Source of the DNA: Spirochaetes bacterium ADurb.Bin215
Lineage (GTDB): Bacteria; Spirochaetota; Spirochaetia; Treponematales; Treponemataceae
Length of the DNA: 46,159 nt
Direction of reading: 5' to 3'
Assembly: GCA_002070025.1 (NCBI GenBank)
Contig: MWCL01000015.1
Location: 1-46,159 of the forward strand
Shown here: piece by piece, positions 8,422 to 28,572 of the stretch
Layout: every line of letters starts with the position of its first letter
Position numbering within the stretch: position 1 is the first letter of the stretch
Position numbers and translations under genes: made by a program
The notes under the pieces: generated by a model
Databases searched by the model: none
Seen by the model: the letters and a program-made list of their open reading frames with translations, nothing else
Told to the model about the DNA's origin: nothing

Positions 8422-8967
8422 TTATTGTCCGTCCCGCCAGGCGATGAGTGCCCGGCGGGCGGATTCAAAGGCGATGGGGGCGGTTTCAAAATCTGCCGGA
8501 GCCACAAGTTCCAGCGACGAAACCTCCCCCGCCTCCGCCGTAAATACGGACAGATCCCCGGAAAAAACCGCGCTGAAATACAAATCGCAGGTTTTATACC
8601 ACACGTCCCGGTAGGTGTAAGTATTTGGCCAACTTCCAACAAATTTGGTAGCAGTAACTGCCAGCCCCGTTTCTTCACGACACTCCCGCACGGCAGCGTC
8701 TTCCGCCCGCTCGTCCGGATCCACAAACCCGCCGGGAAGCGCGAGCAATCCCTTTGCCGGATCCCGGTTCCGCCTGAGCATGACAACGAATCCGTCATGC
8801 TCAATGATGACACTCGCGGAAGCGGCGACATTATGATAATAGACAAACCCGCAGGCGGGACATGCCCAGTATTTTCCGTCGTGATACGCGATACCCGGCT
8901 TTCCGCAGCGGGAACAGTAATCGATCGGTGCGGGATTCATGGCAGTATCCCCGGAGGGCGCACTCAT
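8422..8967 (-). CDS. Nudix hydrolase with N-terminal zinc ribbon
   Basis: A 181-residue Nudix protein. An N-terminal zinc ribbon (CSRCG about residues 18-22, CPACG about 36-40) precedes the Nudix domain, whose box is complete: GGFVDPDERAEDAAVRECREETGL-type spacing G-x5-E-x7-REC-x-EE-x-G from about residue 78. Such zinc-ribbon Nudix enzymes resemble NudC-like NADH/NAD-cap pyrophosphatases, but the NudC SQPWPFPxS signature is missing, so the substrate is undefined. The annotated ATG (8967) overlaps the stop of the ECF fusion by 4 bases; ATG 8940, with GGGGA upstream, is an alternative. It is the last gene of the pdxK-ECF operon. Confidence 0.85.
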   Translation of the reverse strand: MSAPSGDTAMNPAPIDYCSRCGKPGIAYHDGKYWACPACGFVYYHNVAASASVIIEHDGFVVMLRRNRDPAKGLLALPGGFVDPDERAEDAAVRECREETGLAVTATKFVGSWPNTYTYRDVWYKTCDLYFSAVFSGDLSVFTAEAGEVSSLELVAPADFETAPIAFESARRALIAWRDGQ

Positions 8968-11111
8968 ACACTACCCCGCCGGGAAATGATCGACAAGAAG
9001 ACGATTCCGGCCGCAAGCAGCAGGGAAAACGCAACAAGAACATGCTGGCGCAATCCGGATGTCCAGTAAAAATAGCGTGTGTGGTTTCCGCTGCCGTAAT
9101 AGCGCGCGGTTACCGCTTCGGCAAGGTGTTCTGCACGGGCCAGGGTGCGGATTACCAGAGGAACAAAAAGGCTGGCCATGGACCTGAGTCCGTGAAACCG
9201 GCCCCGGTTTTCGCTCCGGCCGGCTTTGCGGATAATTCGCGCCCGGGCAATCCTGCCCGCCTCGGTATAGAGGAGCGGAATAAAACGAAACACGATACCG
9301 GTAAGCAAGGAAAGATCCCGCACCGGTACCCGAAGCACGTTGAGGGGTTTGAGTAGATCCTCAACGCCGTACATGATTTCAGTATGACTCGTTATGAACA
9401 CAAACACGGAAAGCGGTATGAACAAGGCAATGAACCGCAACAAAAAAACCGGATTAACGCTCTGTCCCCGGAATACCGCATACTGCATCACTGCAATAAG
9501 CGCAATCCAGGGAAGAATTTTCAGCAATCCCCGGCCAAGCCGCACAAGCGGATAACGGGAACACAGAACCGTTATCAGTTCGAGAGCCAGCACGGCAAGC
9601 ATAACCGGAAGGGTTTCGGCGGCAAGAGCGGCAGTAATAGCCGAGATGGTGCACAGGTATTTACCCGCGGGCGACAGGCCGTGATAGACCGATGTGCCCT
9701 TTTCATAACTCCCCGTTTCTCCCTGTCGAAGCCGCTCTATGGTTTGCTGGTCCTTGTCCAGCTTCTTTTTGACGGCTGGTCGTACCCGGTACGAATCCGG
9801 AACCTGCAGGGTAATAACCTGATCGGCCAGACGGCATTCTTCTTCCCGATTGGTAGAAAAAATGACGGTCTTTCCCCGGGACGCGAGCGATACAATCAGC
9901 TCCAGAAGCTGGGCCCGGCTCCGGACATCGAGGGCCGACGAGGGTTCGTCCAGCAAGATAACCGGGGTATCAAGTGCGATGATGCCGGCAAGGGCGGCCT
10001 TTCGCCGCTCACCGCCGGAAAGTGAAAAGGTCTGCCGGTCCTTGAACTCGGCGAAGGGCAGCGACGCGGCGTCCATCGCGGAGGAAACTCGTTCAACGAG
10101 CGTCTTTCCGGAAAGCCCCGCGTTTCGCGGGCCGTACGCTACATCGTCGGCCACGAACTCGGCAAAGAGGCTGGCCTCGCTTTCCTGAACCGCGAGGGCG
10201 GATCCCGCGTCGGCCGCTCGGGTCACGGTTCCGCTGTCCGGAACGCGCAATCCGGCAAGAATTTCAAGAAGCGTTGATTTGCCCGAGCCGGATTCGCCGG
10301 TAATTGCGGTTACGCTCCCCCGGGGGAACCGGGCGGAAAAATTTTCCAGCGGTCCTTCGCAAAGATCGCGGCATTCGAGAATGATATCCTCCACAGTCCG
10401 GGACACGGGCTTTTCCGGGAACCGGGCAGATATTCCCCAGCGTTCCTGATCCGCACCGCTCACGGTATGAAGTTCGCGCGGCGTTCCGTCAAAGACAACC
10501 GCGCCGTCCTCCATGACCAGCACACGGCCGGCCCGGGCCGCTTCATCCCGGTCATGGGTAATATGAATGATGGTTCCGCCGGATTGGTGGCGGGTATCGA
10601 GATAGTCAAGCAATTCGGCGCGGACCACCGGGCTGAGCATGGACGTCGGCTCGTCGAGAACGAGAACCGCGCTTTCGAGCACATGCACACCGGCAAGCGC
10701 GAGCAGCTGCTTGTTCCCGGTCGAAAGCAGGGCGCTGGCCTCACCCGCGCGGGACGCGAGGCGAAAGGCATCAAGAGCCCGCGGTACCCGTTCCTTCATA
10801 ACGTCGCGGGGAACGGCGAGGTTCTCCAGCCCGAAGGCGGTATCGAGTTCTACCGTTTCCGCCACGATCTGGTCGCCGGGTGACTGGAAGACGAGCGCGG
10901 TGGGAACACCTCCCTCGTCGTCAATAGTGACCGTTCCGGCATCGGGCACGAGCAGGCCGGTGATGCAGCGGGCAAGCGTGCTCTTCCCCGATCCGTTAGC
11001 GCCAAGTACCGCAAGATATTCGCCGGTTCCAATCGAACAGGTTATACTCCGGAGCGCAGGAGAATCAGAGCCGGGATAGGTATAGGAGAGTCCCGTAATA
11101 CTGACGGACAT
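8964..11111 (-). CDS. ECF transporter energising module: ATPase-ATPase-EcfT fusion
   Basis: A 715-residue single chain with the full energy-coupling module for vitamin uptake. Domain order: ATPase 1 (residues ~1-235, Walker A GANGSGKST at 37-45, Walker B VLVLDEP, switch region ITHDRDEA); ATPase 2 (~243-440, Walker A GESGSGKST at 272-280, signature LSGGE at 364-368, Walker B ILLDEP); EcfT membrane domain (~478-715) with several helices and the two arginine motifs ARARIIRKAG and TARYYG that couple to the ATPases. ATPase 1 has LSTGNKQ where the LSGGQ signature is expected, and ATPase 2 has FSTNREE with Asn421 in place of the switch histidine. It lies 28 bases after pdxK, and the S component is divergent nearby. 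No strong ribosome-binding site is seen before ATG 11111. Confidence 0.88.
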   Translation of the reverse strand: MSVSITGLSYTYPGSDSPALRSITCSIGTGEYLAVLGANGSGKSTLARCITGLLVPDAGTVTIDDEGGVPTALVFQSPGDQIVAETVELDTAFGLENLAVPRDVMKERVPRALDAFRLASRAGEASALLSTGNKQLLALAGVHVLESAVLVLDEPTSMLSPVVRAELLDYLDTRHQSGGTIIHITHDRDEAARAGRVLVMEDGAVVFDGTPRELHTVSGADQERWGISARFPEKPVSRTVEDIILECRDLCEGPLENFSARFPRGSVTAITGESGSGKSTLLEILAGLRVPDSGTVTRAADAGSALAVQESEASLFAEFVADDVAYGPRNAGLSGKTLVERVSSAMDAASLPFAEFKDRQTFSLSGGERRKAALAGIIALDTPVILLDEPSSALDVRSRAQLLELIVSLASRGKTVIFSTNREEECRLADQVITLQVPDSYRVRPAVKKKLDKDQQTIERLRQGETGSYEKGTSVYHGLSPAGKYLCTISAITAALAAETLPVMLAVLALELITVLCSRYPLVRLGRGLLKILPWIALIAVMQYAVFRGQSVNPVFLLRFIALFIPLSVFVFITSHTEIMYGVEDLLKPLNVLRVPVRDLSLLTGIVFRFIPLLYTEAGRIARARIIRKAGRSENRGRFHGLRSMASLFVPLVIRTLARAEHLAEAVTARYYGSGNHTRYFYWTSGLRQHVLVAFSLLLAAGIVFLSIISRRGSV

Positions 11112-11139: not shown

Positions 11140-11949
11140 TCAATTAAAGCCTTTCCGCCATCCGGAGGGATTACCGGGACCGACCCAGCGGTTGAGCGGG
11201 AAGCTGCCGCGGAGATTGTAGGTTACGAATTTTTTCGCCCGGCTCACCGCTTCATAGGGGTCAAGACCCAGCGCAAGCGCGGCGGTTACCGCGGCGGAAA
11301 GGGTGCAGCCGGCGCCGTGAACCCACTTGGTATCGATGAGGGCGCTTTCCACCTGGTTGAAATTTTTACCGTCGAAAAAAATGTCCACAGCGGTGGTCTG
11401 TCCGCTCAAGCGGGAGCCGCCCTTTATGAATACATTCCGCGCGCCCTTCTTATGGATTATTTTGGCGGCCTTTTTCATGTCTTCCAGGTTCGTCGGAGTT
11501 TCCACCCCGGCAAGTTGTCCCGCCTCAAAAAGATTCGGCGTAACCACGAGAGCGAGCGGCAGCAGTTTTTCTTCCACAAGCCGGTTCAATTCGGGATGCA
11601 GGGCTTCGCTCGCACCCTTGCAAACCATGACGGGGTCAAGCACGTAGCGATCGAGTTTTGCTTCTCGGATAAAGGTTTCAGCAAGCAGAACCGCCTGTTC
11701 TGAACCGAGCATACCGGTTTTCGCAGCGTCTACGCCAACTCCGTGGAAAATGGTGTGCAGCTGGGCACGGAGGACCGATTCATCAAGGGGATAAACCCCG
11801 TGAGACCACTCGTTATCGGGATCCATCGTCGCGATGAGGGTGACTGCCGCCATGCCGTATACACCGTATTCTTCAAATGTCTTGAGGTCGGCTTCCAGTC
11901 CGGCGCCGCCGGATGCATCGGAACCGGCAATTGTTGCTACTTTAACCAT
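11140..11949 (-). CDS. pdxK: Pyridoxine/pyridoxal kinase of the ThiD-like (PdxK) type
   Basis: A 269-residue ribokinase-fold kinase. It phosphorylates B6 vitamers, or hydroxymethylpyrimidine if it is a true ThiD. The start chosen is ATG 11949 (MVKVATIAGSD), with AAAGGAG 8-9 bases upstream; a longer frame upstream has no such signal. Visible motifs are GSDASGGAGLEADLKTF near the N-terminus, DPVMVCKG at ~115 and the anion-hole/catalytic HGAGCTLSAAV near 215. The DPVMVCKG form and the C-terminal SFPLNRWVGPGNPS closely recall the Bacillus subtilis PdxK-type enzyme more than classical ThiD, in line with the nearby vitamin transporter. First gene of the operon with the ECF fusion and Nudix hydrolase. 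Confidence 0.82.
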   Translation of the reverse strand: MVKVATIAGSDASGGAGLEADLKTFEEYGVYGMAAVTLIATMDPDNEWSHGVYPLDESVLRAQLHTIFHGVGVDAAKTGMLGSEQAVLLAETFIREAKLDRYVLDPVMVCKGASEALHPELNRLVEEKLLPLALVVTPNLFEAGQLAGVETPTNLEDMKKAAKIIHKKGARNVFIKGGSRLSGQTTAVDIFFDGKNFNQVESALIDTKWVHGAGCTLSAAVTAALALGLDPYEAVSRAKKFVTYNLRGSFPLNRWVGPGNPSGWRKGFN

Positions 11950-11972
11950 GTATAGAGCTCCTTTACCCCACA

Positions 11973-12002
11973 AGTATACTGAAATTCAAACGCCCTGAAC
12001 AA
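11973..12002 (-). promoter_or_regulatory. Predicted promoter of pdxK-ECF-nudix operon
   Basis: Reading the minus strand, TTGTTC (12002-11997) and TATACT (11978-11973) are 18 bases apart and lie 24 bases before the pdxK ATG, with AAAGGAG between. It is separate from, and divergent to, the repeat-bearing region of the S-component gene. Confidence 0.55.
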
Positions 12003-12127: not shown

Positions 12128-12736
12128 ATGGACAACAAAAAATCTTCTGTGATTCGAAAACTGGTTATCACCGCCGCGCTTGGATCGCTCACCATATTTC
12201 TCGGGATAACCCGTCTCGGTCTCATTCCCTGGGTATCCGGAGTTTCCATAACCATCATGCACATTCCTGCGATCATCGGAGCCATCCTTGAGGGATCCTT
12301 CGTTGGAGCCGGAATCGGCGCGATATTCGGTATCTTCAGCCTCTTCCAGGCAAACCAGACACCGGCCGGGTTTGACACCCTGTTCCGGAATCCGCTCGTT
12401 TCGGTACTGCCCCGGATTCTTTTCCCGGTGATTACCTGGGGTGTGTATTATCTCGTTTCCCGATGGAAAAAAATCCCGGCGGTCATTATCGCGTCAGTAA
12501 CCGGAACGATTATCCACACCGCGCTCGTCCTCGGCATGCTCGTGCTCACGAACGGCTCGGGGGTCCTCACCGGCGGTGCCGAGGGCGTTACCCTCTGGGC
12601 GGTACTCGGCGCGATATTCGTGGCCAACGGAATTCCGGAAGCGATCGCGGCCGGTGTACTCACAACGCTCGTGGTCGCGGCCCGGCTCGGCTTCTCGTCG
12701 TCCAGGCGAAAATCGAAACTTTCTTCTGAAGAATAA
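12128..12736 (+). CDS. ECF transporter substrate-binding (S) component, probably for vitamin B6
   Basis: A 202-residue membrane protein with about six hydrophobic helices, of the ECF S-component superfamily (PanT/PdxU-like group). The N-terminal part ITAALGSLTIFLGITRLGL carries the Ala-x-x-x-Ala-like helix-1 face that docks on EcfT, followed by the group's typical VSITIMHIPAIIGAILEG and NPLVSVLPRILFPV. S components bind the vitamin and use a shared ATPase/EcfT module; here such a module is encoded divergently with a B6-type kinase, so pyridoxine or pyridoxal is the likeliest substrate, with pantothenate or another vitamin possible. TAAGGAG precedes ATG 12128. Its transcription is probably controlled through the duplicated dyad just upstream. 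Confidence 0.82.
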   Translation: MDNKKSSVIRKLVITAALGSLTIFLGITRLGLIPWVSGVSITIMHIPAIIGAILEGSFVGAGIGAIFGIFSLFQANQTPAGFDTLFRNPLVSVLPRILFPVITWGVYYLVSRWKKIPAVIIASVTGTIIHTALVLGMLVLTNGSGVLTGGAEGVTLWAVLGAIFVANGIPEAIAAGVLTTLVVAARLGFSSSRRKSKLSSEE

Positions 12737-12813: not shown

Positions 12814-14760
12814 TTACTTGCTCAACAGCCGGTTCAGCTTTTTCACAAAGTCTGCGGGATCCTTGATATCCGAGCCCTCAACAAGCAGAGCCTGGTCGAG
12901 GAGCACCGACGATACATCGTCGATATAGCCTTCGTCATCAGTATCTCGAAGCTTGGTTACCAGCGCGTGATCGGGATTTATTTCCAGAATCGGTTTTACC
13001 TCGGCGAGTCCGGCCTGGCCCATGGCTTTCATCATGCGTTCCATCTGGAGGCTCGGGTCATTTTCGTCCACCACGATACAGGACGGGGAATCGGCGAGCC
13101 GGCGGGAAACGCGAACGTCTTTAACCCGCTCCCCGAGCGCTTTCTTGATTTTCTCAACGACCGGCTTGCTGTCTTTTTCCTTTTCCTTCGCGGCTTTCTT
13201 TTCTTCTTCATTCGCGAGCTCATCATCGGAACCGGCACGGTTTACCGCCTTGAGGTCCCAATCCTTGTACTTTCCAAGCGAGGGAATCACGATATCGTCA
13301 ATCTCGTCGCTCATGATGAGCACTTCAAAACCCTTGGCGCGATACGCTTCAAGATGTGGCGACTGGCGGAGGGTCTTTTCGTCGCCGCCGGTAATGTAGT
13401 AGATGGCCTTCTGATCCGTCTTCATGCGGCTTACATAGTCTGCGAAACTGGTCCAGACGGATGCCGGTTTTTCATTACCGTCCTCATCCTTTTCCGCCGC
13501 CGCTTCAAAAGTAGTCTTGAAGCGAACGAGTTCGGCAAGCTCTTCCCGATGCGCGTAGTCGCTGTACAGACCTTCCTTCAGCGGCCGGTTGAACTCGGTA
13601 ATGAAGGTGTCATATTTTACCGGATCGGATTCCGCGAGTTTGCGGAACTCGCCGAGAAGTTTCTTGACCGATGCCGACTGGATTCCCGCAAGAATCCGGT
13701 TTTGCTGCAGAATCTCGCGGCTCACGTTGAGCGGGAGATCCTCGCTGTCAATAATACCCCGGACAAAGCGGAGATATACCGGCAGAAGCTCCTTCTCGTC
13801 GTCGGTGATAAACACGCGTTTCACAAAGAGTTTCACGCCGCTTTTATAGTCGGCATGGAACATGTCAAATGGCGCTTTCGAGGGAACGTAAAAGAGCGTG
13901 GTGTACTCCTGGGTTCCTTCAGCCTTGGTGTGCACGTACAACAACGGATCATCGGAATCGTGGGAAATCGTCTTGTAAAACGAGACATAGTCCTCGTCCT
14001 TGAGATCGCTCTTGGATTTTTGCCACATGGCGCTCGCGTCGTTGATCTGCTCGGAAACCGGCTCCTCGCTTTTCACCTTGCCCTTGTCATCGTATTCTTT
14101 CTTTTCATAGTGCAGATAGATGGGGAAGGCGATGTGATCAGAGTAGCGCTTCACAATGTCTTCAATTTTCCACCGGGAAGCGAATTCCTTGTCGTCGTCA
14201 TTGAGATGCATGACCACGCAGGTTCCGTGACTTGCTTCTTCAACGCCTTCGATAACCGGAAAAGCCGACGCGTCCACGCCGTCAAGTTCATAGGCGCCCT
14301 TTCCGTCCGACACCCATTTCCATACAGTATCTGTCCCGGCTTTTTTGGATATCACTTCAATCTTCGAGGCGACCATGAAGGCTGAATAGAACCCGACACC
14401 GAACTGGCCGATAAGGTTTGAATCCCGTTTGGCGTCGTTGGCGAGTTGATCCAGGAAGGCCTTGGTTCCCGAACGGGCAATAGTTCCCAGATTGGTAACG
14501 ATATCCTGCTCGTCCATGCCGATACCGGTGTCGCGCACCGTCAGGGTGTTGTCTTTTTCGTCAAAGAGGATGTCAATTCGGGGCGAAAACCGTACGGTCT
14601 TGTACGCTTCGTCGGACAGGGTCAGATATTTCAGCTTGTCGAGCGCGTCGGACGCATTTGACACAATCTCCCGCAAAAAGATTTCCTTGTTTGAATACAG
14701 GGAATGAATAATCAGGGTTAACAGCTGGTTAACCTCGGTTTGAAACTGATGGGTGGCCAT
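12814..14760 (-). CDS. htpG: Molecular chaperone HtpG (bacterial Hsp90)
   Basis: A 648-residue Hsp90 homologue, a cytosolic ATP-dependent chaperone dimer. The N-terminal GHKL ATP-binding domain shows REIVSNASDALDKLKY (catalytic Glu, adenine-site Asn), DTGIGMDEQDI and the lid-region GQFGVGFYSAFMV. The middle domain includes the conserved LFVKRVFITDD and GIIDSEDLPLNVSRE with the arginine that contacts ATP. The C-terminal dimerisation domain ends with DQALLVEGSDIKDPADFVKKLNRLL. A lysine/glutamate-rich linker (EEEKKAAKEKEKDSK) sits near residue 500-515. AGGAG precedes ATG 14760. It is monocistronic, with a divergent promoter region shared with the omptin gene. Confidence 0.97.
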   Translation of the reverse strand: MATHQFQTEVNQLLTLIIHSLYSNKEIFLREIVSNASDALDKLKYLTLSDEAYKTVRFSPRIDILFDEKDNTLTVRDTGIGMDEQDIVTNLGTIARSGTKAFLDQLANDAKRDSNLIGQFGVGFYSAFMVASKIEVISKKAGTDTVWKWVSDGKGAYELDGVDASAFPVIEGVEEASHGTCVVMHLNDDDKEFASRWKIEDIVKRYSDHIAFPIYLHYEKKEYDDKGKVKSEEPVSEQINDASAMWQKSKSDLKDEDYVSFYKTISHDSDDPLLYVHTKAEGTQEYTTLFYVPSKAPFDMFHADYKSGVKLFVKRVFITDDEKELLPVYLRFVRGIIDSEDLPLNVSREILQQNRILAGIQSASVKKLLGEFRKLAESDPVKYDTFITEFNRPLKEGLYSDYAHREELAELVRFKTTFEAAAEKDEDGNEKPASVWTSFADYVSRMKTDQKAIYYITGGDEKTLRQSPHLEAYRAKGFEVLIMSDEIDDIVIPSLGKYKDWDLKAVNRAGSDDELANEEEKKAAKEKEKDSKPVVEKIKKALGERVKDVRVSRRLADSPSCIVVDENDPSLQMERMMKAMGQAGLAEVKPILEINPDHALVTKLRDTDDEGYIDDVSSVLLDQALLVEGSDIKDPADFVKKLNRLLSK

Positions 14761-14865: not shown

Positions 14866-15819
14866 ATGCGTATCCGGATTATGGCATTGTACGTATTTTT
14901 ACTCCTTCCTTTGTTGCGTCCCGCCGCCGAAGAAGCGTCCTGGTTTGTTTCATCAGGTATTCACTCGGGGGAAATCCGCGAGCTGGTATACGAGGGCGAC
15001 GAAATCTTGAGCGAACTCGTATGGCCGCTTGATTCACTTCTAACGGTTACGCTCGGCGGCTCTCTTCCGCTTGGCGGAGGCGTTCATCTTTCAGCCTCGC
15101 TCGAGGCGGGTTCCCTGCTCATGGAGCAAAGCATGACAGATTCCGATTACCTGAACCTCCCGGAAAGAAGCGAAAAAACGCATTTTTCCCGTCATCCGGT
15201 GGATATGAAGCAGTATCTAGAATTCCGCGGCGCGCTCCGCCGCCCGGTCACCACGGGTTTATCAGGAGTATGCACAAACAGAAAAATCCGCATCAGCCCC
15301 GGACTCGAGTTCCGCTTGTCTTCCGCGGCCTGGACCGGCAGGGACGGGTATCTCCAATATGGCACCTGGAACGGTGACTTCTGGAACCCCTGGCATTCCG
15401 GCCTCCCCAAGACCGAAACTCCTGGAACGGTAATTACCTGGCACTGGACACGTATTCTTCTTGCGGCGTCCCTCTCCGTCGATGTTCCGGTGGGAAACCG
15501 GTTTCTTGTTTCCGCATCCATTCTTGCCTCCCCGCTCATCAAGGCCGACGGCAATGATATGCACGTACTTACCGGTACGGTGTTTCGGGATACCATGTAC
15601 GGAGGGGTTTTTCTTGAACCCGCACTTCGTGCAGAGTATCGCATTGCGTCCGGATATCATCTTTTCGCCGTGGGGTCCTGGTCGTACCAGGCGGATACCC
15701 GGGGGGACACCCGAAGCGGTCCGGTCGGCGGTGAGCTCGCTACCACTTTTAAAGGCGGCGGTGGCAACGACATGACACTGATTTCCTTTTCGCTCGGCTT
15801 GAAAAAAACAACGGAGTAA
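14866..15819 (+). CDS. Omptin-family outer membrane protease
   Basis: A 317-residue exported protein with a short signal peptide (residues 1-20, ALYVFLLLPLLRPAA) and alternating polar/hydrophobic strands of a ten-strand barrel. The pattern follows E. coli OmpT: an early SGEIRELVYE (OmpT SGKTKERVY), then TDSDYL with D92 and D94 (OmpT Asp83/Asp85), SRHP at 108-111 (also in OmpT), and GNDMHV with D231 and H233 (OmpT Asp210/His212). All four catalytic residues are therefore present with OmpT-like spacing. Omptins cleave between basic residues at the cell surface and, in enterobacteria, need lipopolysaccharide for activity. It lies between htpG and the Mla-like operon but has its own promoter. Its occurrence outside Proteobacteria is unusual; identity is by motif and length, not by alignment score. 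Confidence 0.82.
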   Translation: MRIRIMALYVFLLLPLLRPAAEEASWFVSSGIHSGEIRELVYEGDEILSELVWPLDSLLTVTLGGSLPLGGGVHLSASLEAGSLLMEQSMTDSDYLNLPERSEKTHFSRHPVDMKQYLEFRGALRRPVTTGLSGVCTNRKIRISPGLEFRLSSAAWTGRDGYLQYGTWNGDFWNPWHSGLPKTETPGTVITWHWTRILLAASLSVDVPVGNRFLVSASILASPLIKADGNDMHVLTGTVFRDTMYGGVFLEPALRAEYRIASGYHLFAVGSWSYQADTRGDTRSGPVGGELATTFKGGGGNDMTLISFSLGLKKTTE

Positions 15820-15863
15820 CGGTACGTCCCGGGCAATAAAGAATCTCCAAAAGAATCAATTTC

Positions 15864-15893
15864 TTGTGCATTTCTTCCATAATGAGATATAAT
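15864..15893 (+). promoter_or_regulatory. Promoter of the mla-like operon
   Basis: TTGTGC (15864-15869) and a perfect TATAAT (15888-15893) are 18 bases apart. The start codon at 15900 is the seventh base after the -10 box, so the transcript may begin at the AUG. GAGG at 15894-15897 is too close (2 bases) to act as a normal ribosome-binding site. Confidence 0.65.
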
Positions 15894-15899
15894 GAGGCA

Positions 15900-16679
15900 A
15901 TGATAAAAAGGATTGGATCGCGGATACTCACCAACTACCAGTCTGCCGTGTACACGGTGGGATTCTTCGGAAAAACCCTGCGGGGAGTTCCTCCTTTTGT
16001 GTATCGGGGACAGGCGTCCTACAAGATACTGATCATGCAGATCCTGTTTACCTTTGTTGAAGCCCTCAGTGTTTCCCTGCTTCTTGCCATCGGCATCGGT
16101 ACCGCAGTCAATGTTCTGGGACTTCCGATTCTGGCGAGCTTTTCCCAGGAAAAACTCATCTACCCGCTCATTATAACCATCGTTACCCGGGAGCTTGGCC
16201 CCCTACTCACCGCGTTCATCATAATCGCCCGCTCGGCAACTGCAATCGCGACGGAAATTGCCGGCATGGTTGTTTCGCACGAAATTGAAGCGTATATTTC
16301 CGTCGGCATCGACCCGATCGAACATATCGCCGTGCCCCGGTTTCTCGGAGTTACCCTTTCGCTGTTCCTGTTGAACATTTATTTTTCCATTGCCGGTCTC
16401 GTCGGCTCATTTTTTCTTGTACAAATTCTCGGTATCCTCCCGGCTACCGACTATTTCAACAACCTGCTCCAGAACCTGACCGTTGCCGACATACTGGTAT
16501 CGCTCCTCAAGAGCGTCGTATTCGGGATGATTCTGGCGGTAGTCGCCACGGTGCAGGGATTTTCGGTGGAACGTGCATCCACAGAAATTCCCCAGGCAGG
16601 ACTGCGTGCGGTAGGAAGCGCTTTTGCCTGGTGCATTATCGCAAACCTGGTCATCTCCGCCATCTTTTACATGGTATAG
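15900..16679 (+). CDS. mlaE: MlaE-like ABC permease (phospholipid transport)
   Basis: A 259-residue inner-membrane permease of the MlaE family. It has about five to six hydrophobic helices and the family core TRELGPLLTAFIIIARSATAIATEI followed by GIDPIEHIAVPRFLGV, which interacts with the ATPase. In the Mla system the MlaE dimer moves phospholipids between the inner membrane and the periplasmic MCE ring. The start ATG 15900 (MIKRIGSRIL) was chosen because it matches the usual N-terminus and lies at the predicted transcription start; ATG 15882 would lie upstream of the -10 box. It is the first of four tightly spaced genes (8-base gap to the ATPase). Confidence 0.9.
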   Translation: MIKRIGSRILTNYQSAVYTVGFFGKTLRGVPPFVYRGQASYKILIMQILFTFVEALSVSLLLAIGIGTAVNVLGLPILASFSQEKLIYPLIITIVTRELGPLLTAFIIIARSATAIATEIAGMVVSHEIEAYISVGIDPIEHIAVPRFLGVTLSLFLLNIYFSIAGLVGSFFLVQILGILPATDYFNNLLQNLTVADILVSLLKSVVFGMILAVVATVQGFSVERASTEIPQAGLRAVGSAFAWCIIANLVISAIFYMV

Positions 16680-16687
16680 CGAAGCAT

Positions 16688-17425
16688 ATGGAAACACCGG
16701 TCATCGAACTGAAAAACATTTCCCTCACGGCCCAGAACATGACGATTGTTCAGAATGTTCAGCTTTCGATCAAGGATGGACAGACAGCGGCTTTCGTGGG
16801 GCCTTCCGGCGGAGGGAAGAGTACACTCCTCAAGCTCGCAGCCGGACTGATTGTTCCCACGGGCGGCGAGGCTTATTACCGCGGACAGGCGATTTCCACC
16901 ATGAACCGGCAAAGCAATCTGAATTTCCGGCGAAAGACCGCCTTCGTATTCCAGGATTCCGCACTCTGGGCGAACCAGAGCCTCCGGCAGATTCTCGAGC
17001 TGCCCCTCAAGATACACTTCCCCCGCATGACGGAAAAGCAACGTACCGCGCGCATTGTTGAGGTATGCGCGGAAGCGGGATATCGGCGGGAACTCGATAT
17101 ACGTCCGTCCCAGCTTTCCATGGGCGAGCAAAAGCTTATTGCTTTCGCACGAGCGCTGGTTTGCGATCCGGATCTCCTGTTCCTGGACGAATGGACGGAA
17201 TCGCTCGATGACGCGTCAGCACGCCGCCTGATAAACGCGGTCAAGAAACGTCAACAGGCGGGAAGCACCATCGTGTTCGTAAGCCACAACTTTATGGTAA
17301 TCAAGGAACTTGCCCAGCGAATATGCATGATCATGGACGGGAGACTGTCCATGGAAATTTCCGGAAAGGAAATCGCGCAAAACGAAGCCCTTGCCCAAAT
17401 GGTTCAAAAAGGAATAGCCCTATGA
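16688..17425 (+). CDS. mlaF: MlaF-like ABC transporter ATPase
   Basis: A 245-residue ATPase that would power the MlaE-like permease. Walker A is GPSGGGKST (about 39-47), the signature region reads LSMGEQKLIAFARAL, Walker B is LLFLDEWTESLD and the switch histidine is in FVSHNF. Two positions differ from the usual forms: LSMGE for LSGG and DEW for DEP after Walker B, though the catalytic glutamate is kept. Start ATG 16688 (METPVIELKN) fits the family; the longer frame upstream overlaps mlaE. It overlaps mlaD by 4 bases (17422-17425). Confidence 0.9.
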   Translation: METPVIELKNISLTAQNMTIVQNVQLSIKDGQTAAFVGPSGGGKSTLLKLAAGLIVPTGGEAYYRGQAISTMNRQSNLNFRRKTAFVFQDSALWANQSLRQILELPLKIHFPRMTEKQRTARIVEVCAEAGYRRELDIRPSQLSMGEQKLIAFARALVCDPDLLFLDEWTESLDDASARRLINAVKKRQQAGSTIVFVSHNFMVIKELAQRICMIMDGRLSMEISGKEIAQNEALAQMVQKGIAL

Positions 17426-18402
17426 AATTCAAAATCAGGTACGCGGATCAAATTGTGGGGATTCTGGCCATCACGGCCATTCTTGCCCTCGTACTGACCA
17501 TCTTCATGCTCGGCAGCCGGCAACGCTGGTTTGCCCGCAACTATAATTTTCAAACGACCTTTGAAACGGCAAGCGGTCTCTCGGTGGGGATGCCTATTCA
17601 GTACAAGGGTTTTACCATAGGTAAAATCAAAAGCATCTTCCTGAACAAGTCTGACGGAGTCGATGTTTCCCTCTACATCTTTGATACCTACGCGAACCGG
17701 GTCCGGGAGGGCTCGGTGGTTGAGCTCATCGTCAATCCGATCGGTCTCGGAAACCAGTTCCTGTTTCATCCGGGAATCGGCGAAACGCCCCTTGCCGAGG
17801 GCAGTCATATCCCGCGTCTGGATTCCCCGGAGGGACAGGCCTTCCTTGCGACCGGACGAGTCACCATTCCTCGCCGGGACGATACCGTCGCAAACATTAT
17901 CGCGCAGGTTAATCCGTTCCTGACCAAGCTCAATGATACGCTGCACATCGTAAACGGCGCGCTGGACGGCAGCGGGAAGGGCCCGCTTGCGGATACCATG
18001 GTTAACACCGCCGGCATTACCGAAGAACTGTATGAATCAATGGACTCGATCCTTGCGGACGTATCGTCCATGACGGCAAATCTTGAGGAACTTTCAAGAG
18101 CCCTTTCGGATCCGACCGGACTCGTACCGACACTGATCGATCCTGACGGAACCATGTTCCGGAGCATCGAGAATTCCCTGCTCGCGGTAGAGGGAACGCT
18201 GAAAAATGTTGAAGACTCATCCGAGATTGTCAAATTCCAGTTTCCGCAGATTGCCCGGCTGATCGAGGATATACGGATCGCGATTGTGCAAAGCCAGGAC
18301 GTAATGGAAGGACTTCGCAATAACCCGTTGATACGGGGCGGTATTCCCGAGCGGGGAAAAACGGATCCCTCCGCCGCCAATTCACAAACCATCGAGTTTT
18401 AG
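17422..18402 (+). CDS. mlaD: MlaD-like MCE-domain protein
   Basis: A 326-residue periplasmic protein anchored by one N-terminal helix (about 12-34, IVGILAITAILALVLTIFML). The MCE domain follows (~residues 45-115: ETASGLSVGMPIQYKGFTIGKI through IGLGNQFLFHPG). In the family it forms hexameric rings that channel lipids above the permease. The C-terminal two-thirds is predicted helical (for example SMDSILADVSSMTANLEELSR), longer than E. coli MlaD (183 residues) and more like the needle-forming or Mce-type extensions. The gene overlaps mlaF and is followed 9 bases later by the lipoprotein gene. Confidence 0.9.
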   Translation: MKFKIRYADQIVGILAITAILALVLTIFMLGSRQRWFARNYNFQTTFETASGLSVGMPIQYKGFTIGKIKSIFLNKSDGVDVSLYIFDTYANRVREGSVVELIVNPIGLGNQFLFHPGIGETPLAEGSHIPRLDSPEGQAFLATGRVTIPRRDDTVANIIAQVNPFLTKLNDTLHIVNGALDGSGKGPLADTMVNTAGITEELYESMDSILADVSSMTANLEELSRALSDPTGLVPTLIDPDGTMFRSIENSLLAVEGTLKNVEDSSEIVKFQFPQIARLIEDIRIAIVQSQDVMEGLRNNPLIRGGIPERGKTDPSAANSQTIEF

Positions 18403-21096: not shown

Positions 21097-21134
21097 GGCA
21101 TACTGGGGCATTACCGAAACCCGGAGGAATCGTG

Positions 21135-24100
21135 ATGGAAGCATCCGTACACCGTCTCTTTATAGAACGGAAAGATGGATTTGACAATGAGGCAAAACGG
21201 ACCAGGGAAGAGATTACCTCCCTTCTCGGCATACAGAATCTCGCTGGTGTACGCTACTGCAACCGCTATGACCTTGAGGGCATTGATACAGACGTCCTCG
21301 ATACGGCTGCAAGCAGGATTTTTTCCGAACCGCAGAGCGACCGGGTCTACCGGGAAATTCTCCCCGTTTCGGAAGACGAGACCGTCATCACGATTGAATA
21401 TCTTCCCGGTCAGTATGACCAACGGGCCGACTCTGCCGGGCAATGTCTGGCGCTGATCCCCGGACTTGAGGGAAAAAACGTACTGGTCCGGTGCGCCAGG
21501 GTCTACATTCTCTCCGGAAACCTTACGTCGGGTGATCTCGAGCGGATACGCAACTATCTCATCAACCCGGTTGACTCCCGCGAGGCGGACAGCGCCAAGC
21601 CGGCGACCCTTGCCATGAAAACCCCGGCCGTTGCGCAGGTCCCCGTACTGTCCGGATTCACCGCATACTCGGCCGTTGAGCTTTCCGCGTTCAGGGTGGA
21701 CTACGGTCTTGCCATGGACGACGCGGACATTGTCTTTTTGCAGCAGTATTTTCAAAAAGAAGGTCGGGACCCTACCGAAACTGAAATCCGGGTTCTCGAC
21801 ACCTACTGGTCGGATCACTGTCGCCACACCACCTTCAATACCATTCTCGATTCAATTGACGTTGAAGACGGCCCGTACGCGGAAACCGTCCGCGAAGCAT
21901 TGAACGTATACACCAACCTCCGCGCGGAACTCCATTCCGGCCGCGACAAGCCGGTAACCCTCATGGACATGGCGGTAATCGGAGCGAAAGCGCTGCGGAA
22001 ACGCGGACTTCTCGACGATCTCGAAGAATCCGCCGAAATAAACGCCTGTTCAATCTTTATCGACGTTACCCTTCTCGACGAACACGGTGCCCGGAGCGGA
22101 ACCGAATCCTGGCTGCTCATGTTCAAGAATGAAACACACAACCATCCCACCGAGATTGAACCCTTCGGCGGCGCGGCGACCTGTATCGGCGGCGCCATCC
22201 GTGACCCCCTTTCCGGCCGTGCCTGGGTTTACCAGGCGCTTCGGGTAACCGGCGCGGGCGATCCAACCGTTCCGTTGAAAGACACCCTTCCCGGAAAGCT
22301 TCCCCAGATTTCCCTTACCCGCGGCGCCGCCGCCGGGTTCAGCGCTTACGGTAACCAGATCGGCCTTACCACCGGCCAGGTTGTTGAATACTACGATCCG
22401 GGCTTCCTTGCCAAACGCATGGAACTCGGCGCCGTTATCGCGGCAACTCCCGTTTCCTCCGTGGTACGCGAGGAACCCGAAGCCGGCGACGTGGTCATCA
22501 TGGTCGGCGGCGGAACCGGACGGGACGGTATCGGTGGAGCAACCGGCTCATCAAAAGCGCATACCGCAGAATCGGTAACCGAAGCAAGCGCCGAAGTTCA
22601 AAAAGGCAACGCCGTAGAGGAGCGGAAAATCCAGCGGCTCTTCCGCGATCCCGCCGTAACACGGCTCATTCGCCGGTGTAACGACTTTGGCGCGGGCGGC
22701 GTTTCCGTCGCGGTCGGAGAACTTGCTCCGTCGCTTGATATCGACCTTTCCGCCGTCCCGAAAAAATATGAAGGCCTCAACGGTACCGAGCTCGCCATTT
22801 CCGAATCCCAGGAACGCATGGCCGTCGTGGTCCGTGAAAAAGACGCCGCCGCTTTCATTGCAGCAGCAAACCGTGAAAACCTCAATGCAGCCGTTATCGC
22901 TCGCGTTACGGACACCGGCAGACTCGTCATGCGGTGGCAGGGGGATACCATCGTGAACATCGACCGGGAATTCCTGGACACGGCAGGCGCCAAACGGAAC
23001 GCCTCCGTAACAATCTGCCAGCCCTCCGCCGAGTGGAACTGGCAAATCGCGGCGGACAAACCGTTCGCGGACCGCTGGTACTCCGTTCTCTCCGATCTCT
23101 CCGTTGCTTCACAGCGGGGTCTGACCGAACAGTTTGACGGCTCCATCGGGTCATCGTCAATCCTTTTCCCCGCAGGTGGCTCATTCCAGGCAACTCCCGA
23201 ATGCGGCATGGCCGCGCGTATCCCGGTCGGCCCCGGAAAAGAGACAAGCACCGTCAGTCTCATGACCATGGGCTACGACCCTAAAGCCGCGTCCTGGAGT
23301 CCCTTTCATGCGGCTCAGTACGCCGTTCTCGAATCTCTTGTAAAGATCCTCGCCCTCGGCGGTGATCCGCGTACCGCGCGCCTCACCTTCCAGGAGTACT
23401 TTGAACGGACAAGCTCGCCGGAAGCCTGGGGCAAGCCCGCCGCGGCCCTTCTCGGCGCCCTGCAGGCGCAGCTCGGCGCGGGAACCGCGTCCATCGGCGG
23501 CAAGGACAGCATGTCCGGCACCTTTCACGATATCACGGTACCGCCGACACTCGTTTCGTTTGCCGTAGCCGTAACCGACCAGCAGAAGGTCAGGGGAGGC
23601 GCCTTTACCGGTGTGGGCAATGCCATCGTACTTGTCCAGACCCCCTGGAAGAAGGATCGTACGCCGGACTGGAACGTATTCCATAAAAACACCGAAGCCC
23701 TTCTCGCACTTGCCGAAACCGGTTCGGTACACGCGGCGTATCCGGTTACGGCAGGCGGTATCGCGGCGGCAGTAACAAAGATGGCTTTCGGCAACAGGAT
23801 AGGCGCGGCGCTTGATACCGGGCCCCTTTCCACGCTTCAGCCCCAGGGCTTCGGGAATGATCCCGCAGCGGCCCTTTTTGCCCCGTGCTATGGTTCGCTC
23901 ATCCTGGAAGTATCCAGCGCGGACATTCTGGCTTTCAGCGCCAACTGTCCGGAAGCGTCAAACTGGAAAGTCATCGGAAAAACACTACTGGATCCGGTTA
24001 TCACCTACGGAGAACACACCATCAATCTTGACCGGGCGCAAACGGAATGGGAACGGCCGCTCGCAAAGGTTTTCCCGCCGGTTTCAAGTACCAACGCGGC

Positions 24101-25022
24101 GGACTCCTCCGTCGGAGAGCTTCCTTCCTGGGCTCTGAATCTTGTGAAAGCCGGGAAACCGGACGCCCCCGCGGGCATCAGCACCGCAAAGGCGAAACCG
24201 CTTGTTGTTCTGCCGGTCTTCCCCGGAACCAACTGCGAATACGACATGGCCCGGGCCTTTGCCCTCTCGGGCGCCGAAACCCGACTGGTTGTGCTCAGAA
24301 ACCGTACCGCGGCCGATCTCGAAGAATCCCTCGCCGAACTTGCATCGGCGATACAGGACGCGCAAATTCTCGCGTTCTCGGGAGGCTTTTCCGCGGGAGA
24401 CGAACCGGACGGCTCGGGAAAGTTCATCGCGAACATTCTCCGGGAGCAGGTAATCGCTGACCGGATCATGGATCTCGCCGGAAATCGCGACGGTCTCATC
24501 CTCGGTATCTGCAACGGATTCCAGGCACTGATAAAGGTAGGACTCATCCCTTACGGTGAAATCCGTGAACCTTCCGCGGACATGCCGACCCTTACGTACA
24601 ATACGGTCGGCCGTCATATTTCCCGCTTTGTCCGTACCCGCATAACATCAGACAAGTCCCCCTGGGCCTCCGGGACAGGGCTTGCCGCCGGTTCAATCCA
24701 CGAAATTCCGGTTTCCCACGGCGAAGGCCGGGTCATCCTTGATGCAGGACTCGCGGAAAAACTCTTTGCCAACGGCCAGGTCTTCACGCAATACGTGGAC
24801 CGATCCGGTAAACCGACCATGGTTGAACCGGACAATCCCAACGGATCACTGTTTGCCATTGAGGGCTTAACCGATGAAACCGGAAGGATTTTGGGAAAGA
24901 TGGGACACAGCGAACGTGCTATAGATACAGAACCGGGCGGAAAAACCCGTCATCTTTTCAAGAACATACCCGGCGATACCTGTGAGAACATATTCGCCGC
25001 GGGTGTCCGCTATTTTTTATAG
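21135..25022 (+). CDS. purL: Phosphoribosylformylglycinamidine synthase, single-chain large form
   Basis: A 1295-residue enzyme of the fourth step of purine synthesis (FGAR + glutamine + ATP to FGAM). The order is an N-terminal PurS-like region, a linker, two AIRS-type ATP-binding halves (motif DTYWSDHCRHTTF near 232 and KNETHNHPTEIEPFGGAAT near 335) and a C-terminal class I glutaminase with nucleophile C1126 in LGICNGFQAL. In many bacteria PurS, PurL and PurQ are separate; the fused form of about 1240-1300 residues is known from enterobacteria and, as a distinct clade, from clostridia and treponemes, which this resembles. ATG 21135 is preferred over GTG 21132 because GGAGGA lies 6 bases before it. 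No other pur genes are in the window. Confidence 0.95.
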   Translation: MEASVHRLFIERKDGFDNEAKRTREEITSLLGIQNLAGVRYCNRYDLEGIDTDVLDTAASRIFSEPQSDRVYREILPVSEDETVITIEYLPGQYDQRADSAGQCLALIPGLEGKNVLVRCARVYILSGNLTSGDLERIRNYLINPVDSREADSAKPATLAMKTPAVAQVPVLSGFTAYSAVELSAFRVDYGLAMDDADIVFLQQYFQKEGRDPTETEIRVLDTYWSDHCRHTTFNTILDSIDVEDGPYAETVREALNVYTNLRAELHSGRDKPVTLMDMAVIGAKALRKRGLLDDLEESAEINACSIFIDVTLLDEHGARSGTESWLLMFKNETHNHPTEIEPFGGAATCIGGAIRDPLSGRAWVYQALRVTGAGDPTVPLKDTLPGKLPQISLTRGAAAGFSAYGNQIGLTTGQVVEYYDPGFLAKRMELGAVIAATPVSSVVREEPEAGDVVIMVGGGTGRDGIGGATGSSKAHTAESVTEASAEVQKGNAVEERKIQRLFRDPAVTRLIRRCNDFGAGGVSVAVGELAPSLDIDLSAVPKKYEGLNGTELAISESQERMAVVVREKDAAAFIAAANRENLNAAVIARVTDTGRLVMRWQGDTIVNIDREFLDTAGAKRNASVTICQPSAEWNWQIAADKPFADRWYSVLSDLSVASQRGLTEQFDGSIGSSSILFPAGGSFQATPECGMAARIPVGPGKETSTVSLMTMGYDPKAASWSPFHAAQYAVLESLVKILALGGDPRTARLTFQEYFERTSSPEAWGKPAAALLGALQAQLGAGTASIGGKDSMSGTFHDITVPPTLVSFAVAVTDQQKVRGGAFTGVGNAIVLVQTPWKKDRTPDWNVFHKNTEALLALAETGSVHAAYPVTAGGIAAAVTKMAFGNRIGAALDTGPLSTLQPQGFGNDPAAALFAPCYGSLILEVSSADILAFSANCPEASNWKVIGKTLLDPVITYGEHTINLDRAQTEWERPLAKVFPPVSSTNAADSSVGELPSWALNLVKAGKPDAPAGISTAKAKPLVVLPVFPGTNCEYDMARAFALSGAETRLVVLRNRTAADLEESLAELASAIQDAQILAFSGGFSAGDEPDGSGKFIANILREQVIADRIMDLAGNRDGLILGICNGFQALIKVGLIPYGEIREPSADMPTLTYNTVGRHISRFVRTRITSDKSPWASGTGLAAGSIHEIPVSHGEGRVILDAGLAEKLFANGQVFTQYVDRSGKPTMVEPDNPNGSLFAIEGLTDETGRILGKMGHSERAIDTEPGGKTRHLFKNIPGDTCENIFAAGVRYFL

Positions 25023-26008: not shown

Positions 26009-27301
26009 ATGGAAGTTCCTGATACATTGCCTGCGTTGTTGTACGGTATCGCGTTTCCCGTTTTGCTTCTTCTTTCGATGTTCTTTTCATCGTCGGAAAC
26101 CGCGTTCCTCTCGGCAAGCAGGCTCCACATCCGATACCTCAGGGAAAAAAACAACAGGGCGGCCCGGCGTGTGGAACGCTTGCTTTCCAGAAAAACTTTT
26201 TTCCTGAATACAATCCTTGTCGGAAACAACATCGTCAACATTTCATTATCTTCGCTCGCGACCGCTCTTGCGATCGGCCTTTTCGGGTCCGCCGGTGTCG
26301 GAATAGCCACGGTTACGGCGACAGTACTCGTACTGCTCTTTGGAGAAATCATTCCCAAATCACTCGCGCTCACCTATCCGGAAAAAATGGCGCTGCGCTT
26401 TTCACTTCCGGTAACCCTTTTCGGCATTCTCGCCTTCCCGATTACCGCCATCTTTTCGCTGGTAACAGCCCTGGTGCTCTTTTTCACCGGCACCGCGCGC
26501 AGATCTTCCACCGGCCATGTCACCGAAGAAGACCTCCGGACGCTCATAGAAGTCGGAGAAGAAGAAGGCGTTCTCGAATCTGATGAACGCGACATCCTCC
26601 ACCGCATCCTGGATTTTACCGATCTGACCGCACGGGATATCATGACGCCCCGGACTGCGCTTGTCGGAATAACTCTTGATACCGGGTACGACGAACTGCT
26701 TTCCCTTTCCGCGTCTTCCGGTTTTTCCCGCTTCCCCGTTCAGGGAGATGACATTGACGACATCCAGGGCATCGTATACATCAAAGACCTTCTGATGACG
26801 GAGAAATTCAGCGAGCAGGGTATTCGCGCACGGGACATCATGAGAAGCGCACTCTTCGTGTTTGAAACGCAGAGTATTCCGCTGCTGCAGGAAAAACTGA
26901 AAAGCGGAAACCAGAACTGCGCGATCGTTCTGGACGAATACGGGGGGACTGCCGGCCTGGTTACCATTGAAGACATATTCGAAGAAATTTTCGGTAGCAT
27001 CCAGGACGAGTTTGACCATCTTGAAATCACGACAGAACAGTCGGCGGATCACGGCAGGGGGAATGACGAAGAACTGCTTCTTCCCGGAGCCGAGCGTATT
27101 GAAACCGTGAACACGCTTCTGGACATCAATCTTGAGTCACAGTACTACGACACCATTGCAGGCTTTCTGCTCGAACGGGCCGCGGACATCCCGGCCCCGG
27201 GGTTTACCATTGAAGAACAGGACTATCGTTTTACCGTTCATGAACGGTCCGGAAACAGGATAGAAACAGTGCGAATACAGCGGAGCGGGGGTACAGAATG
27301 A
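26009..27301 (+). CDS. CNNM/CBS/CorC-domain membrane protein (TlyC-like) 1
   Basis: A 430-residue protein with an N-terminal DUF21/CNNM transmembrane domain (~1-190, with [13 protein letters not shown] and [11 protein letters not shown]), a CBS-pair domain (~205-330; [33 protein letters not shown]) and a C-terminal CorC/HlyC domain (~345-425; [21 protein letters not shown]). Bacterial members bind ATP/Mg2+ in the CBS unit and are linked to Mg2+/Co2+ export; the older 'hemolysin' name is not informative. The stop overlaps the start of a paralogue (27298-27301). Confidence 0.9.
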
Positions 27302-28572
27302 CCGGAATTCCGCTGTATCTGATTGCGGCGCTCGTGCTGCTGTTTATTCTCTCAGCCTTCTTTTCAGCCTCTGAAACCGCGCTTACGGCCATTTCAAAAG
27401 TACGCTTGCGCCAGCTGCGGAAAAGCAACAACAAGCGCGACCGGCTCATCGTCTTTCTTCTCGACAATCCCTCCCGCCTGATTACCACCATCCTGGTCGG
27501 AAACAATATTGTGAACATATGGGCAACCAGCATCGCCACAGCGGCGGCTCTTGCCATTGCGGGTCCGGACGGATTACCCGCGGTGACCATGATCATGACA
27601 GGGGTCATTCTCGTATTCGGTGAAATTCTCCCAAAAACAATTGCCTCCGCCCGAAGCGAGTCCTGCGCACGCATCCTTGCCCTTCCCGTCGCTCTTGTAC
27701 AGAAAGCGCTATTCCCGATAGTGCTGCTTTTCTCGGCATTGAACTCGACCATGCTTTCCGTACTCCACCGCTTGCATCCCCAATCCGCGACCCGTCTCAC
27801 GGAAGAAGAACTCAAGATCATGGTGCATGCCGGAAAAAAAGACGGCGCACTCGATGAAAGCGAACACAGTCTGCTGAACCGCGCGTTTTACTTTGCCGAT
27901 ACCCGGGTTCGGGAAATCATGACCCCCAGAACGGCCATAACCGCTATATCGGGGGAAGCAACCCTTACCGACGCCGTGTCGTTCTTCCGGAAACACCAGT
28001 ACTCCCGTATTCCCGTCTACCAGGACACGGTAGATCACATAATCGGCATGATCCATTACAAAGATATCCTCTTTCACGTACGAACGGACGCAAACGCTCA
28101 GCTCAGAACGCTGGTCCGGCCGCTCCTGTTCGTTCCGGAAACACAGACAACCGCGGATCTTATGGGAGAACTCAGGAATTCACGGCAAAACATCGCCATT
28201 GTTATCGACGAGCATGGAGCTACAGCCGGACTCGTAACCATAGACGACGCCATAGCTTCAATTCTCGGAGGAATTCATGACGAGTACGACAAGGGAACGG
28301 AACGTCCCCTGGAGCGGGTCAGGATACTCTCACCGGGACATATCAGGGTGCCGGGAAACCTCCGACTGGATGACATTAATGCACTGCTCCGGACATCACT
28401 CGATTCACGATATTACGAGACCCTGGGCGGGTTCCTCATGGAACAGCTAGAGCGCCTGCCGGTACGGAATGATTCCTGGAGCTCCGGCGCGGTCCGCATG
28501 CGGGTCGTCGAAATGGCGGGAAGAACGGTACAGACTGTCGATATTTTTCTTGATTCCGGGGATAAAGCATAG
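27298..28572 (+). CDS. CNNM/CBS/CorC-domain membrane protein (TlyC-like) 2
   Basis: A 424-residue paralogue of the preceding gene with the same domain order: CNNM (~1-180; SASETALTAISKVRLRQLRKSN, FGEILPKTIAS), CBS pair (~200-325; MTPRTAITAI, IHYKDILF, VIDEHGATAGLVTIDD) and CorC (~345-420; LLRTSLDSRYYETLGGFLME). The two differ enough that they may form a hetero-oligomer or act on different ions. Tandem pairs of such genes are common in bacteria. ATG 27298 overlaps the upstream stop by 4 bases. Confidence 0.9.
   Translation: MTGIPLYLIAALVLLFILSAFFSASETALTAISKVRLRQLRKSNNKRDRLIVFLLDNPSRLITTILVGNNIVNIWATSIATAAALAIAGPDGLPAVTMIMTGVILVFGEILPKTIASARSESCARILALPVALVQKALFPIVLLFSALNSTMLSVLHRLHPQSATRLTEEELKIMVHAGKKDGALDESEHSLLNRAFYFADTRVREIMTPRTAITAISGEATLTDAVSFFRKHQYSRIPVYQDTVDHIIGMIHYKDILFHVRTDANAQLRTLVRPLLFVPETQTTADLMGELRNSRQNIAIVIDEHGATAGLVTIDDAIASILGGIHDEYDKGTERPLERVRILSPGHIRVPGNLRLDDINALLRTSLDSRYYETLGGFLMEQLERLPVRNDSWSSGAVRMRVVEMAGRTVQTVDIFLDSGDKA

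Follow-up and report, generated by a model that had tools for sequence, protein, structure and literature searches.

An omptin ordinary for its lineage in a spirochaete very probably without lipopolysaccharide

Omptins have been described, at least in the part of the literature available to us, as an enterobacterial family and as enzymes that require lipopolysaccharide (LPS). A gene annotated as an omptin on a contig of Spirochaetes bacterium ADurb.Bin215 (46,159 nucleotides, analysed as a whole and referred to here as the window; Table 1) thus raises the question of whether the encoded protein is a true omptin and, if so, how it could work in a bacterium that might have no LPS to offer. Taken jointly, the best reading of our sequence comparisons and structural model is that the protein would be a functional aspartate/histidine protease of the outer membrane, which folds and acts without LPS; we give this reading a probability of about 0.8.

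Table 1. Features of the omptin gene and its immediate surroundings, in window coordinates
Feature	Coordinates	Strand	Evidence and remarks
Omptin-family outer-membrane protease (predicted), 317 aa	14866..15819	+	PF01278, AlphaFold2, 1I78 fold match
Probable signal peptide, about residues 1-24	14866..14937	+	Inspection; helix 2-12 precedes barrel
Catalytic D92-S93-D94 (OmpT D83, D85)	15139..15147	+	D92 in 102/106 and D94 in 106/106 phylum copies
S108-R109-H110-P111 (OmpT S99-R100-H101-P102)	15187..15198	+	Ser kept in 102/106 copies
Catalytic D231-M232-H233 (OmpT D210, H212)	15556..15564	+	D and H each in 105/106 copies; remaining row gapped
htpG (Hsp90), divergent neighbour	12814..14760	-	NF003555, 769 bits; linkage kept in relatives
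mlaE-mlaF-mlaD-like lipid-transport genes	15900..18402	+	PF02405, PF00005, PF02470

Family identity and predicted fold

The open reading frame comprises 317 codons from an ATG start to a TAA stop, and its product scores 62.7 bits with the Pfam Omptin profile (PF01278; MEROPS A26; cut-off 22.6; E = 3.8e-17), in a match that spans residues 25-313 of the protein and positions 6-280 of the 283 in the profile. Matches to the NCBIfam omptin models were weaker and stayed under their curated cut-offs, and the best sequence matches in the PDB were entries for Pla of Yersinia pestis (E 0.004). An AlphaFold2 model, built from an alignment of the window omptin with 14 relatives from named genomes, reached a mean pLDDT of 93.2 and a pTM of 0.86, and the long strands of the modelled barrel can be counted as ten, as in OmpT of E. 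coli. In a Foldseek search of the PDB the first 11 rows were Pla, OmpT and pOmpT (for OmpT, 1I78_A: E 7.3e-20, TM 0.82/0.87). With VIA-align the model matched OmpT (1I78_B) with a Z score of 30.7 and an rmsd of 2.2 Å over 280 residues, and the Pla structures 2X4M, 2X55, 2X56 and 4DCB with Z scores of 28.6-30.4; the next non-omptin was OpcA, with a Z score of 19.4. Sequence identity to OmpT is 18%. The profile match and the likeness of the modelled fold to OmpT and Pla far exceed chance. Both the profile search and the comparison with 1I78, which the first-pass annotation had proposed as checks, thus bear out its assignment: the protein is a genuine omptin, one more member of a family already known.

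In the model, D92 and D94 end strand 88-94, and D231 and H233 end strand 213-233. The first-pass annotation would have counted a location of the two pairs on different strands against an omptin; this was mis-specified and would reject real omptins, because their catalytic pairs lie on different strands and oppose each other across the barrel (PMC7696990). The predicted strand-end placement is as expected for an omptin. The N-terminus resembles a signal peptide by inspection (MRIRIMALYVFLLLPLLRPAAEEA), with helix 2-12 modelled at low confidence and the barrel beginning at residue 24, and the protein would be exported through Sec and form a ten-stranded barrel in the outer membrane. It ends in KKTTE and lacks the usual C-terminal aromatic residue, so that insertion by BAM is an assumption.

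The host had been taken for a probable spirochaete from the sequence alone, and the closest relatives agree with this. A scan of named-genome contigs with the window omptin sequence as the only query gave no match, and with a 4-row alignment as query the closest relatives were all Spirochaetales or Treponema metagenome-assembled genomes (MAGs), the nearest being Spirochaetales bacterium Spiro_10 (L096; 37% identity). An Rfam scan of the whole window gave no match.

Distribution, lipid A genes and the LPS-binding motif

Among 393 genomes drawn from the window's phylum, 121 encode an omptin above the PF01278 cut-off. Sub-counts made by hand from the listed rows place 99 of these in the window's class and show an omptin in 68 of the 80 sampled genomes of the window's family, where the gene, first regarded as unusual, is therefore standard. 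In a quick tree the window-family labels were clustered (6 changes versus 30.8 in shuffles), the omptins of this family did not form one clade, and many deep branches were weak. The tree is consistent with long vertical transmission in which paralogues arose, copies were lost and some transfer perhaps occurred; on the basis of the clustered family codes, the omptin has been largely inherited within the Spirochaetia and diverges fast. Tandem or multiple omptin genes per genome occur at L045 and L065 and in genomes G107 and G170. One genome of the window's family (G056; 1.1 Mb, one contig) has no omptin though its congeners have one; judged from its size only, it perhaps represents the T. pallidum lineage.

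Lipid A genes were sought with Pfam families. LpxC (PF03331) was detected in 110 of the 393 genomes, none of which belongs to the window's class, and LpxB (PF02684) exceeded the cut-off in 115, likewise all from other classes. Consequently, the 99 omptin genomes of the class yielded neither gene in these searches, and the ready detection of both elsewhere in the phylum serves as a positive control. Seven omptin genomes are LpxC-positive, all in other classes (G008, G012, G021, G033, G087, G131, G170), and LpxC was not found with PF03331 in the remaining 114 of 121. The assembly of the window's genome consists of 189 contigs with 95.5% completeness, and neither KdtA (PF04413) nor LptD (PF04453) was detected in it by Pfam; the latter is a weak test because some LPS-free spirochaetes have divergent Lpt proteins, which are thought to carry glycolipids (PMC10353723). 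With LpxC, LpxB, KdtA and LptD all undetected, lipid A synthesis is very probably absent from the host, in line with the supposition of the first-pass annotation. The window omptin is thus ordinary for its lineage, its host very probably lacks LPS, and since no lipid A pathway is recognisable, the active form of the enzyme would have to be reached with a lipid other than LPS or with no lipid cofactor.

The putative LPS site of OmpT consists of Y134, E136, R138, R175 and K226 (PMC7356225). The corresponding residues of the window omptin are F, L, S, T and Y, so that all five motif residues are missing, although a two-residue length difference in this region of the alignment makes statements on single residues approximate. 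Pla, whose activity needs R138, R171 and lipooligosaccharide (PMC7696990), differs as well, these two positions being S and T in the window omptin, and at most two of the five motif residues occur in any copy from the phylum. We had considered loss of the motif as a marker of LPS independence and rejected it, because, with OmpT for comparison, most of it is missing from the omptins of the LpxC-positive phylum genomes, of Desulfobulbaceae and of Lentisphaerales as well, and because OmpT with all five residues changed is still active and stimulated by LPS (PMC7356225). The motif characterises enterobacterial omptins and has no diagnostic value. At the two Arg positions, one LpxC-positive copy (L111) carries Lys.

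These results also bear on an alternative in which a specific spirochaetal glycolipid replaces LPS as activating cofactor and binds at its own dedicated site on the barrel. Enterobacterial omptins are stimulated by LPS (PMC7356225, PMC7696990) and LPS-free spirochaetes possess membrane glycolipids (PMC10353723), given which the window omptin may have a lipid ligand, and the absence of all five OmpT residues would also count in favour of this alternative. However, no conserved replacement site was identified, motif loss does not track LPS loss in the controls, and OmpT is still active after mutation of all five residues; we therefore regard a dedicated glycolipid cofactor as rather unlikely. 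The first-pass annotation had suggested adaptation to another outer-leaflet lipid, which is conceivable but conjectural.

Active site and substrate pockets

The catalytic residues and the SRHP segment named in the first-pass annotation align with their OmpT counterparts (Table 1), the quartet being the same as in Pla, and the equivalents of OmpT E27, S40, S99 and H101 are present too. In an alignment of 106 phylum copies (87 rows in an earlier version) the quartet is complete in 101, and the S40 equivalent is invariant. Outside the catalytic positions divergence is extreme, with a mean column identity of 28% in a 16-row omptin alignment. That the quartet has been kept despite this points to purifying selection on the active site and argues that catalysis is under selection across the omptins of the phylum. 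By analogy with OmpT, D92/D94 and D231/H233 would activate a water molecule at the outer rim of the barrel, and peptides or proteins would be cut at the cell surface.

Which substrates these might be is less clear. The dibasic preference of OmpT rests on E27 and D208 in the S1 pocket and on D97 in S1' (PMC11410778). The window omptin keeps the E27 equivalent and has Gly in place of D208 and His in place of D97, and thus does not possess the OmpT-like set; Asp at the D208 position is found in just 23 of the 106 phylum copies. The earlier expectation of Arg-Arg specificity is therefore uncertain: cleavage at such sites cannot be assumed, and because S1' and part of S1 differ, the substrates probably differ from those of OmpT. 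The protease would be likely to destroy cationic peptides or to trim proteins of the cell surface.

A second omptin-like subfamily has Tyr at the E27 position (L105, L108, L110-L115). Apart from L105, it is found in LpxC-positive genomes and in genomes of family f38 or of other classes, and it keeps the catalytic residues except in the fragmentary L113_3, which ends before D210/H212.

The altered pockets might be taken to mean that the protein is an adhesin or structural protein of omptin fold with little or no proteolysis, all the more as omptins of the Pla type double as adhesins (PMC7696990) and as the acidic residues D208 and D97 of S1 and S1' are both replaced. We consider this improbable, because the window omptin and nearly all other copies retain the catalytic quartet and the equivalents of E27, S40 and S99 although the sequences diverge very strongly otherwise.

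Gene neighbourhood and implications

The omptin gene lies between htpG, on the opposite strand upstream, and the mlaEFD-like set, on the same strand downstream. The start of mlaE is probably better placed at the ATG at 15900, which leaves a gap of 80 bp past the omptin stop. The first-pass annotation had read this lipid-transport operon as a functional clue, and the relatives show it to be incidental. L096 and other Spirochaetales and Treponema MAGs share the catalytic set and the htpG-omptin context with the window, and in five relatives (L032, from the same genus as the window organism, L093, L094, L095 and L096) the omptin is located between htpG and mla. In all five, however, a minus-strand gene of about 740-800 aa, which looks by eye like a B12-binding radical SAM protein, parts the omptin from mlaE; L095 has a further plus-strand gene between htpG and the omptin. 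The intervening gene is absent at 15820-15899 of the window and was undetected elsewhere in its assembly by a search that finds it in G367. The contact between omptin and mla is thus most simply explained by a local loss, is not ancestral and points to no functional link, and an omptin-mla operon is rejected by synteny.

That the omptin acts jointly with the Mla-type operon in outer-membrane lipid homeostasis, as the short same-strand gap and the htpG-omptin-mla order in five relatives could suggest, is very improbable, since the opposite-strand gene in 5/5 relatives precludes a single operon and most omptins of the window's family sit elsewhere, 24 of them tail-to-tail with a CNNM/CorC gene.

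These 24 loci (L019, L030, L031, L035-L040, L042, L046, L049-L052, L054, L058, L059, L065, L067, L069, L071, L075, L076) represent a conserved neighbourhood without co-transcription. The CNNM/CorC gene is homologous to window 27298-28572 and is often found downstream of a homologue of purL (window 21132-25022). Elsewhere in the window, the open reading frame at 8964-11111 (-) joins a CbiQ/EcfT transmembrane domain to two ECF-type ATPase domains, and near it are genes for a ThiD-like kinase (12128-12736 (+)) and an ECF substrate component (11140-11973 (-)), which suggests a cluster for uptake of a thiamine precursor or vitamin.

Spirochaetal omptins are poorly known, although they will already carry automatic Pfam annotations. 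A Leptospira protein, LIC20019, has been modelled as Pla-like (PMC5406399), and our literature search for spirochaetal omptins found no study, which does not show that none exists. A predicted surface protease common across a Treponemataceae-like family has now been identified. We think the odds slightly favour a wider interpretation, namely that the Spirochaetia hold a large and conserved set of omptins active without LPS, so that LPS dependence would be a derived enterobacterial property, or another glycolipid would substitute. If this is true, LPS dependence is not part of the omptin mechanism. Most valuable in this respect is that intact omptins and missing lipid A genes go together class-wide, which provides a natural control for the need of omptins for LPS; through the LPS-less spirochaetes, the supposed LPS requirement of the family becomes testable.
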